From Pseudomonas sp. LS.1a (GTDB lineage: Bacteria; Pseudomonadota; Gammaproteobacteria; Pseudomonadales; Pseudomonadaceae), in assembly GCF_022533585.1 (NCBI RefSeq), contig NZ_CP092827.1:5116001-5180000 (forward strand): a stretch of 64,000 bases of DNA, given 5' to 3'. The stretch's first letter is position 1; each line of letters begins with the position of its first letter. The notes below the pieces were generated by a model. That model made no database searches, was not told the DNA's origin, and saw nothing but the letters and a program-made list of their open reading frames with translations. The position numbers and the translations under genes are program-made. Shown in pieces: positions 7,730 to 9,809 of this stretch.

Positions 7730-8497
7730 TCAGCCTTTGACCGACCGGTCGATCGAAAACCCTGCCCAGTCCTGGCTTACCGGCATCAGTTCCAGGCTGT
7801 TGATGTTGATATGCGCCGGCTGGTTGAGAATCCAGAAGATGGTCTCGGCAATGTCCTGCGGCTGGATCGGCTCTGCGCCAGCGTAGGTGGCGTCGTATTT
7901 GGCCTGGTCACCGCCGAAGCGCACCAGCGAGAACTCGCTTTCGCACAGGCCCGGCTCGATGTTGCTCACCCGCACGCCGGTTCCCCGCAGGTCGCAGCGC
8001 AGGCTCAGCGAGAACTGGCCGACGAAAGCCTTGGTGCCGCCGTACACGTTGCTGCCCGGGTATGGGTAGTTGCCCGCCACGGAACCTACGTTGAGGATCG
8101 ACGCCCCACGGCCATGGGCAATCAGCCGTGGCAGCAGCAGGCGGGTGGTGTACATCAGGCCCTTGATGTTGGTGTCGACCATGGTTTCCCAGTCGTCCAG
8201 GCTGCAGTTCTGCGCCGCGTCCACACCCAGCGCCAGGCCGGCGTTGTTGACCAGGCCGCGCAGCTTGTCGAAGCCGGCCGGCAGGTTGGCGATGGCCTGC
8301 TCCATGGCCTTGCGGTCACGCACGTCGAGCACCAGGCCGTGTACTTCGGTCTTGGCAGACAGCTCGGCACACAGGGCGTCCAGGCGCTCCTTGCGGCGGC
8401 CTGTGAGCACCAGCTTCCAGCCGGCTTCGGCGAAGCGGCGGGCAGTGGCCTCGCCGAAACCGGAAGTCGCGCCAGTGATGAATACGGTGGACGTCAT
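7730..8497 (-). CDS. ydfG: YdfG-like NADP-dependent short-chain dehydrogenase
   Basis: This 255-residue classical SDR carries the cofactor motif TGATSGFGEATARRF, with TGRRKERL favouring NADPH. Further landmarks are NNAGLALG, the catalytic Ser in GSVAGNYPYPG, and the YGGTKAF motif with Tyr and Lys. The C-terminal block HININSLELMPVSQ is the E. coli YdfG signature. YdfG oxidises L-allo-threonine and 3-hydroxy acids and reduces malonic semialdehyde (family knowledge). The ATG at 8497 is preceded by GAGGAACAG; an earlier ATG at 8524 lacks a site. The gene stands alone, convergent with the epimerase gene. Confidence 0.88.
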   Translation of the reverse strand: MTSTVFITGATSGFGEATARRFAEAGWKLVLTGRRKERLDALCAELSAKTEVHGLVLDVRDRKAMEQAIANLPAGFDKLRGLVNNAGLALGVDAAQNCSLDDWETMVDTNIKGLMYTTRLLLPRLIAHGRGASILNVGSVAGNYPYPGSNVYGGTKAFVGQFSLSLRCDLRGTGVRVSNIEPGLCESEFSLVRFGGDQAKYDATYAGAEPIQPQDIAETIFWILNQPAHININSLELMPVSQDWAGFSIDRSVKG

Positions 8498-8645
8498 GCT
8501 CTGTTCCTCACGGTGGATTATCATCGGCAGTTTTGCAGCATGCCCGCGCCGGGCGCTGGCAGCAACCCGTCCAGGGTGCTGTTCATTTTTTGTTCACCTT
8601 CGGCAAACCCTTGCAGCAGAGGGCTCGGCGCCAGCTATGCGCACG

Positions 8646-9054
8646 TTATCCACAAGGCTTTCCCCACGGATTGGGGGCAACTTGTCCACGGCGCGGAACC
8701 CTTTCAGCGCCTTGTGGTCGGTGGATATCTTTTCGGTGATGGCGCAAGGCTTTCAAGCATGCCGCCTGCAGCGGTCTGTGCAAAGTTTTTTCACAGGGTT
8801 ATCCACAGGTTTTGCGCAATGCCTGGAGTGGCTGCAGGGCTTTGAAAAACTTGGGAAAATCATCCACAAGGGGCCCATGATCAAAAAATGATCATGAAGC
8901 CGCAGGGCTTGGTATCAAAGGGCTTGAGCGAGATGCCACCATGTTTTCCACAGGCGGTTCCACATTATCCGTGGAAAAAATGGTCCTGTGTAAACAAGGG
9001 TTTGTGGTGGGGCTGTGGAGTAATTGGGGAGAGGTGTTCGAAAGGTTGTCCACA
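8646..9054 (+). promoter_or_regulatory. Cluster of DnaA-box-like 9-mers (candidate DnaA-binding locus)
   Basis: Two perfect TTATCCACA boxes lie at 8646-8654 and 8799-8807. Single-mismatch copies are TCATCCACA (8860-8868), TTTTCCACA (8944-8952) and TTGTCCACA (9046-9054), all on the plus strand. Weaker matches (two or three mismatches) are at 8682, 8965, 8987 (reverse) and 9014 (reverse). Clusters of such boxes outside oriC act as DnaA titration or reactivation loci in E. coli (datA, DARS). This role here is inference; the boxes are seen directly. Confidence 0.6.
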
Positions 9055-9059
9055 TTGGC

Positions 9060-9086
9060 TTCGGGGGCCGCTTTGCGGCCCCCGAA
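9060..9086 (-). terminator. Hairpin behind livF
   Basis: A perfect 12-bp stem, TTCGGGGGCCGC with its complement and a 3-nt loop, starts 6 nt after the livF stop. No T-run follows, so it may be a Rho-assisted terminator or an mRNA 3' stabiliser of the liv operon. Confidence 0.55.
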
Positions 9087-9092
9087 TGCAAC

Positions 9093-9809
9093 TCAATGCC
9101 CGCCCAGATATGCGTTACGCACCTCTTCGTTTACCAACAGCTCCTGCCCGGTTCCGGTCATGCGAATCTGCCCGTTGACCATCACATAAGCCCGGTCCGA
9201 CAGCTTCAGCGCATGGTTGGCGTTCTGCTCCACCAGGAAGATGGTCATCCCGCTCTTGGCCAGCTCACGCAGGGTCGAGAAGATCTGCTTGACCACGATC
9301 GGCGCCAGCCCCAGCGATGGCTCGTCCAGCAACAGCAACTTCGGCCGGCTCATCAGCGCCCGGGCAATGGCCAGCATCTGCTGCTCGCCACCGGACATGG
9401 TCATGGCCCGCTGGTTACGCCGCTCTTTCAAGCGCGGAAACAGCTCGTACATGCGCTGCATGTCTTCGTCGGCATGCTTGTCGCCGATGGGGATGGTGCC
9501 CATCATCAGGTTCTCCTCGACAGTCATGTCAGGGAACACCCGGCGCCCTTCCGGCGACTGGGCGATGCCGTTGGAGGCGATGTAGTGCGACGATTTGCGG
9601 GTGATGTCGGTACCGCGGTACACGATATGCCCCGACGCCGCCCGCGGCTGGCCGAAGATCGACATCAGCAGGGTCGACTTGCCGGCACCGTTGGCGCCGA
9701 TCAGGCTGACCGTCTCGCCCTCGTTGATGTGCATCGAGACCTTTTTCAGCGCCTGGATCGGGCCGTAGAACACGTCCAGGTCCTTCAGTTCGAGAATGGG
9801 TGCACTCAT
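9093..9809 (-). CDS. livF: Branched-chain amino-acid ABC transporter ATPase LivF
   Basis: This 238-residue ATPase subunit has Walker A GANGAGKST, the LivF-type switch segment QSPEGRRVFPDMTVEENL, signature MSGGEQQ and Walker B LLLLDEPS with the LGLAP continuation. It powers uptake of leucine, isoleucine and valine together with LivG, LivH, LivM and the binding protein LivK (BraG in P. aeruginosa). Its start overlaps the livG stop by 4 nt (ATGA), indicating translational coupling. It is the last gene of the operon, and a hairpin follows. Confidence 0.95.
   Translation of the reverse strand: MSAPILELKDLDVFYGPIQALKKVSMHINEGETVSLIGANGAGKSTLLMSIFGQPRAASGHIVYRGTDITRKSSHYIASNGIAQSPEGRRVFPDMTVEENLMMGTIPIGDKHADEDMQRMYELFPRLKERRNQRAMTMSGGEQQMLAIARALMSRPKLLLLDEPSLGLAPIVVKQIFSTLRELAKSGMTIFLVEQNANHALKLSDRAYVMVNGQIRMTGTGQELLVNEEVRNAYLGGH

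Follow-up and report, generated by a model that had tools for sequence, protein, structure and literature searches.

In E. coli, DnaA is handled outside oriC by two DARS elements and by datA, the properties of which are taken here from excerpts of the papers cited. On the DARS core, ADP-DnaA molecules bind to the opposed boxes I and II and contact each other head to head; ADP leaves, and the apo-DnaA that is freed takes up ATP (PMC8682772, PMC4245941). DARS1, located between bioD and uvrB, acts without protein cofactors (PMC4585315), and DARS2, located between rppH and mutH, requires the IHF sites IBS1-2 plus FBS2-3 (PMC4245941, PMC8682772). The level of Fis in E. coli tracks growth phase (PMC8682772). 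datA is a non-coding DnaA-box cluster outside oriC and promotes ATP hydrolysis, together with IHF (PMC8682772). In B. subtilis several DnaA-box clusters outside oriC affect initiation, and according to the same review excerpt this species is without datA and DARS loci (PMC13220808); these clusters share their extra-origin position with the Pseudomonas element described here, a likeness known from description, not from layout. The conservation of DARS2 has been described for E. coli and seven of its relatives, among them V. cholerae and Shewanella (PMC8682772), and the excerpt of PMC4245941 describes the DARS2 core as conserved specifically in E. coli relatives. A literature search of the main texts of freely accessible journal articles revealed no paper on a Pseudomonas DARS, in agreement with the original prediction, which knew of no described counterpart in this genus. 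There was none either in the excerpts of PMC4585315, PMC8682772, PMC4245941, PMC13220808, PMC12371093, PMC3937223, PMC4285127 and PMC10218098, and a term search of the accessible text of the 2026 review among these (PMC13220808) gave no mention of Pseudomonas.

The window, i.e. the whole stretch of 64,000 nucleotides that was analysed, runs from bp 5116001-5180000 in the 5,748,595-bp single-contig genome of Pseudomonas sp. LS.1a, which is numbered from the start of dnaA. The box-bearing region is intergenic and lies outside oriC, 0.62 Mb away from dnaA. It is situated upstream of a ydfG-like short-chain dehydrogenase gene (7730-8494, minus strand) and downstream of a livF-like ABC transporter ATPase gene (9093-9809, minus strand), named after their best NCBIfam matches (YdfG and LivF, both under the curated cut-off). 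Neither of these is a replication gene. An Rfam search of 8400-9200 matched no family up to E = 1.

Two perfect and three single-mismatch DnaA boxes had been predicted in this region, and all five were found: perfect copies of TTATCCACA, the high-affinity DnaA box of P. putida (excerpt of PMC4285127), at 8646 and 8799, and one-mismatch copies at 8860, 8944 and 9046. These five are indeed all on the plus strand, as had been claimed, but two degenerate inverted boxes on the minus strand (8672-8680 and 8970-8978) had been overlooked. In addition, TTTTTCACA at 8787 is a perfect match to TTWTNCACA. Throughout the window, 16 TTATCCACA-type matches with at most 1 mismatch were counted versus 4.49 expected from shuffles, and 0 of 100 shuffles reached 16. 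The chance of about 0.002 given originally for one perfect box in the gap could be reproduced (0.0016), but composition is the wrong baseline for such an estimate, because the whole genome contains 124 copies of TTATCCACA versus 17 of the reversed pattern. At the genome-wide rate 0.013 perfect boxes are expected per 595 bp and the probability of two or more is approximately 8e-5; at the rate of the window the latter becomes approximately 0.003. Against the genome's own rate the excess of boxes is smaller, yet clear. Genome-wide, the copies of TTATCCACA crowd near dnaA: 19 of the 124 are in the first 79.2 kb and 24 beyond 5,668,444, and just 3 fall between 1.59 and 4.42 Mb.

Boxes of this cluster form two groups with one and the same layout, designated core A (8646-8680) and core D (8944-8978). 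Read on the minus strand, box I is forward and is followed, after 5 bp, by box II in reversed orientation and, after another 3 bp, by box III, also reversed. Core A reads TTGCCCCCA-atccg-TGGGGAAAG-cct-TGTGGATAA and is composed of box III (8646-8654, plus strand, TTATCCACA), a degenerate box II (8658-8666, plus strand, CTTTCCCCA) and the likewise degenerate, inverted box I (8672-8680, minus strand, TTGCCCCCA). Core D, TTTTCCACG-gataa-TGTGGAACC-gcc-TGTGGAAAA, is composed of box III (8944-8952, plus strand, TTTTCCACA), box II (8956-8964, plus strand, GGTTCCACA) and the inverted box I (8970-8978, minus strand, TTTTCCACG). For comparison, the E. coli sequences were taken from NC_000913.3. The DARS1 core is TTATCCACT-attcc-TGTGGATAA-cca-TGTGTATTA and the DARS2 core, which as located here is flanked by the deletion primers quoted in the excerpt of PMC4585315, is TTATTCACC-ttttc-TGTGGATAG-agt-TGTGAAGAA. 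Orientation and 5/3 spacing of cores A and D are those of both DARS1 and DARS2. The numbering of the boxes is our own assignment, based on the statement in the excerpt of PMC8682772 that I and II are the opposed ones. Matched to TTWTNCACA, boxes I, II and III score 7, 6 and 8 of 8 in core D, 5, 6 and 8 in core A, 7, 8 and 7 in DARS1 and 7, 7 and 7 in DARS2.

Because the two-orientation three-box core has the spacing of DARS1 and DARS2, the evidence favours a DARS in particular, and we estimate at about 70% the probability that the region is a tandem DARS-type element with a new layout, at which ADP-DnaA would exchange its nucleotide, aided by Fis. The original prediction that this is a DnaA site outside the origin, similar in kind to datA or DARS, is supported by this layout as far as the type of site is concerned, the function being the predicted part. 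The weakness of some boxes weighs against the DARS reading: in core A box I reaches 5/8 and box II 6/8, and in three modules at other loci of the same genome box II scores just 4/8.

Outside the cores, the region contains a tandem pair of boxes (block B), a single box and box E. Block B consists of a first box (B1, 8787-8795, plus strand, TTTTTCACA) and, 3 bp off, a second one (B2, 8799-8807, plus strand, TTATCCACA); the single-mismatch box is TCATCCACA (8860-8868, plus strand) and box E is TTGTCCACA (9046-9054, plus strand). Block B was considered as a third core and rejected; the tandem pair is kept, but the inverted box I is not conserved and a Fis-type site near 50 bp is absent, none of at least 10/11 being found within 149 bp of the block.

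Each of the two cores is accompanied by a sequence that matches the Fis consensus GNNYAWWWWWTRNNC (after the excerpts of PMC4585315 and PMC8682772, with the centre tightened here to A/T) in 11 of 11 positions. In module A this putative Fis site is GTTCATTTTTTGTTC (8581-8595), in module D it is GATCAAAAAATGATC (8879-8893), and in both it is located 50 bp beyond box III of the core. An AT-rich inverted repeat had been noticed in the region before; it is real and corresponds to the site of module D, but the match to Fis, the second such site and the fixed distance of 50 bp had not been recognised. In orthologues, the location and type of the two sites are kept and their letters drift, with 4 of 15 columns invariant among 17 genomes for each. 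The genome of LS.1a encodes DnaA and Fis. The latter passes NCBIfam NF001659 and shares 65% identity with its E. coli counterpart across 71 residues; the stretch NRGTLRKKLK is the same in both.

DARS2 resembles the Pseudomonas modules in its three-box orientation, its 5/3 spacing, its Fis sites, the extra DnaA boxes close by and its intergenic position. However, the sole Fis-consensus match within 420 bp on the box III side of K-12 DARS2 is 110 bp off the core and not AT-rich, whereas the Pseudomonas element has an AT-rich Fis-type site at 50 bp, a doubled core and ydfG-like and livF-like neighbours. DARS1, which shares the core layout, has no Fis match at 50 bp, and its sole match within 420 bp is at 228 bp. 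The IHF consensus WATCAANNNNTTR was searched with 0 or 1 mismatch between the core and the Fis-type site and was absent in both modules, which weighs against the DARS reading in so far as DARS2 requires IHF. Exact matches are lacking throughout 8495-9092, and one mismatch yields a single site, at 8992, which falls between box I of core D and box E; this test is weak, because the exact consensus misses E. coli DARS2 too. An imperfect IHF-like site had been noted originally; as the match at 8992 sits on the far side of core D, outside the core-Fis intervals, an IHF site was rejected as a part of the module. Since the neighbours differ, the Fis-type site is nearer and the core-Fis interval is without an IHF match, the element is not DARS2 proper.

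The same region could instead be a datA-like or purely titrating site, which would bind DnaA and, by lowering the amount of free DnaA or by speeding ATP hydrolysis, restrain initiation. Block B and box E do supply boxes that are not part of a core, and perfect boxes are strongly enriched toward dnaA, as has been reported for E. coli as well (excerpt of PMC12371093). However, datA acts with IHF, and an IHF site inside the box cluster, as expected from datA, was found in 8495-9092 only as the single-mismatch match at 8992 (none exact, by the same weak consensus search). The best fit to the three-box layout in E. coli datA has a poor box I (4/8). Pure titration, moreover, requires no box I in inverted orientation at a constant 5 bp and no Fis-type site 50 bp away, and both are found genus-wide (see below). 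We therefore consider a datA-like or titrating site rather unlikely compared with a DARS-type element, even though part of the data would suit it.

A search of the complete LS.1a genome with CMC-N6-YGKGGA-N6-TGTGGANAA, allowing at most 1 mismatch, gave 9 matches, and the reversed pattern gave 0. The cluster, which the original prediction had treated as a lone one, is real but is one of several in the genome: at least four additional loci bear the module. A Fis-type match of 10 or 11 out of 11 is present at 49-51 bp beyond box III in eight modules, i.e. cores A and D and those at genome positions 5022473, 649718, 649532, 385693, 385805 and 1360178, and only one other match of at least 10/11 lies within 149 bp of these eight, 19 bp off the module at 385693. 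That the number of module loci per genome exceeds the two of E. coli weighs against the DARS reading. The core at 1.360 Mb, DARS-spaced and with a 10/11 Fis-type match at 51 bp, has a near-identical core string in two sampled Pseudomonas genomes.

The module loci are INDEPENDENCE from neighbour genes, with unrelated flanks from locus to locus: a histone-deacetylase-like and an HI0933-like gene at 5.022 Mb, a UPF0029-YigZ-type and a short-chain dehydrogenase gene at 0.650 Mb, and an ACT-domain gene and rarD at 0.386 Mb. These unrelated neighbours make it very unlikely that DnaA and Fis serve to regulate transcription locally, be it that of the ydfG-like gene or that of the operon for branched-chain amino-acid transport, an explanation suggested by the position of the region upstream of the former gene and downstream of the livF-like gene and by the fact that DnaA doubles as a transcription factor (excerpt of PMC8203912). 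Four of the five loci, including the one studied here, are 0.39-0.73 Mb from dnaA (13-25% of the half-genome), where early duplication would fit a titrating role; the fifth lies further out, at 1.36 Mb or 47% of the half-genome. A set of copies that are mostly origin-proximal and have Fis-type sites could also be imagined to organise the nucleoid, to act in segregation or to provide a secondary replication start, with DnaA and Fis as architectural proteins. The core spacing is nevertheless that of DARS1 and DARS2, and at the studied locus neither flanking gene is a replication gene, so that such a role likewise appears very unlikely.

In the genus, a strict pattern was fitted by 60 distinct Pseudomonas cores. 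Within 149 bp on the box III side of these cores, 24 perfect matches to GNNYAWWWWWTRNNC were found, every one of them at 50 bp, versus 4 scattered matches on the side away from box III. When at least 10/11 was accepted, 55 of the 60 cores had a Fis-type match at 50-51 bp; the 139 remaining offsets upstream gave 1 match in total, and 150 offsets downstream gave 8. The 60 cores do not represent 60 independent events, because they come from related species; the eight modules of the LS.1a genome, in turn, are distinct places. In the family sample (31 sites) all 8 perfect Fis matches were at 50-51 bp. In the class sample (29 sites) the perfect consensus was rarer at this distance, with 3 of 7 matches, which weighs against the DARS reading. 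A composite of 69 class sites showed tGGTnAAatttTgacCAatTTaAc approximately 50 bp ahead of TCATCCACAaAGTTATCCACAG, and a weak fourth box (tTt.c..cA) 2 bp ahead of box III. The 50 bp in between (8894-8943 in the window, and the equivalent stretch elsewhere) contain a recurring motif of their own, which is GGCCTGCAG-like in many Pseudomonas cores and cgcGg.tT.ggg in the class composite. In the class sample, 79 genomes had a Fis match and 49 of these had a DARS-spaced core, as did 1 of the 15 genomes that lacked a Fis match (Fisher P = 9e-5), a co-occurrence of which genome reduction or incompleteness could be part of the cause.

Conservation of the boxes among close relatives had been proposed beforehand as a check, and it was observed. 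With 8495-9092 as query, matches were obtained in 50 of 149 Pseudomonas genomes, 17 of which (including LS.1a itself) cover approximately 70% or more of it and were aligned. Taken together and leaving out box 8860, the boxes and putative Fis sites had 81 invariant columns out of 111; the rest of 8500-9056, in which box 8860 was included, had 98 out of 446. All 9 columns were invariant in boxes I, II and III of core A, in B2, in box III of core D and in box E, versus 7 of 9 in box II and 5 of 9 in box I of core D. Box 8860, with 0 of 9, is the exception and is probably not part of the conserved element. In relatives with the tandem pattern, B1 is TTTTTCACA, TTTTGCACA or TTTTACACA, i.e. TTTT[T/G/A]CACA, and varies at the free N of TTWTNCACA.

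When contigs were scanned with the core A pattern, 51 loci were found, 49 of them in records labelled Pseudomonas, many of which are presumably species of the P. putida group. Among 49 loci with enough flanking sequence, the Fis-type site 50 bp off core A scored 11/11 in 38 loci, 10/11 in another 10 and 9/11 in the last one. The pattern of core D was recognised in 46 of 49 loci with core A, and its Fis-type site scored 11/11 in 24 of them and 10/11 in the other 22. The 2 remaining loci of the scan are on contigs of Pantoea sp. Cy-639 and Ap-967; the core A pattern is otherwise confined to Pseudomonas-labelled records, and the labels of these two may be wrong.

To evaluate the spacing as such, 13 x 13 = 169 spacings between the boxes were allowed in two sets of genomes, 13 from Pseudomonas and 94 from the class (GTDB). 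We used this spectrum as the main control, because the reversed pattern does not control for the enrichment of boxes. Overlapping registers of one site were removed (14 of 68 Pseudomonas rows and 3 of 96 class rows), and sites fitting several spacings were credited to 6/5 whenever this was among them. The DARS spacing accounted for 27 of the 54 Pseudomonas sites and for 77 of the 93 class sites, compared with approximately 0.3 and 0.6, respectively, expected if all spacings were equal. The DARS spacing is not due to chance; the other half of the 54 Pseudomonas sites is without it, which weighs against the DARS reading.

The fixed-spacing core was present in 142 of 149 Pseudomonas genomes, versus 1 match of the reversed pattern (read off the table), where the genomes counted, here and below, are related species and hence not independent. 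In the family sample, 13 genomes of which are of the same genus, 68 of the 119 genomes had it, and 12 of the 19 genera were represented among these. A generic pattern, which also fits DARS1 and DARS2, matched in 168 of the 274 genomes sampled from the class and in 139 of their 222 genera; the reversed pattern gave 2 matches (read off the table). In the phylum sample the generic pattern matched in 110 of 249 genomes, which by manual count are 33 of the 67 class members and 77 of the 182 genomes from other classes. Many of these 77 are from few families, and the layout is absent in other families with large genomes. In one family of the phylum sample, four genomes of 4.7-5.0 Mb had two generic matches each, one resembling K-12 DARS1 and one DARS2, so that they provide an internal positive control for the generic pattern; a 3.7-Mb member of this family had one match and two members of approximately 1 Mb had none.

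Taken jointly, these distributions could mean that DARS-type modules are an old and general means of replication control, shared by a large part of the class (GTDB) and by certain other classes of the phylum and frequently accompanied by a Fis-type site approximately 50 bp from the core, that the two E. coli elements, which involve IHF and a Fis site further away, are derived, and that Pseudomonas has expanded to some five loci with tandem modules; we see even chances for and against this scenario as a whole.

For the element as a tandem DARS, we infer from the layout that DnaA and Fis bind to it, that ADP is released and that the timing of replication is affected. ADP-DnaA would bind the boxes of cores A and D, and opposed molecules on boxes I and II would meet head to head via their AAA+ domains, upon which ADP would be released. 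The apo-DnaA would then pick up ATP, and the initiation potential at oriC would rise. Fis, bound approximately five helical turns off, would bend the DNA and thereby set the flanking DNA against the DnaA complex, and the bend may also bring the second module or block B to this complex. The weak fourth box 2 bp ahead of box III could help to load a row of DnaA. The element would accordingly combine two tandem cores, each with its own putative Fis site, with a high-affinity tandem pair (block B) and box E, and via Fis the recharging of DnaA may track growth phase. To our knowledge, the recharging of DnaA has been worked out mainly in E. coli. With a strict layout that can be searched for, it becomes amenable to tests in Pseudomonas and in many further genera, and the loci that should matter are predicted; the fixed 50-bp geometry would tie Fis to replication timing. 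The reach of the layout, found in most Pseudomonas sampled and in many other bacteria, is wider than was foreseen originally.

A further check that had been proposed was the density of boxes in other intergenic regions. From the list of perfect boxes and 21 stretches examined, other dense regions do exist; several of them share the module, by which the reading as a site of the DARS kind is strengthened, and that at 326 kb does not. The latter, from 326.2-327.2 kb, was left out of the module count because it gave no layout match of 18 or more. It comprises five perfect boxes and three Fis-type repeats, without a DARS-spaced core, and is possibly a different kind of DnaA-Fis site.
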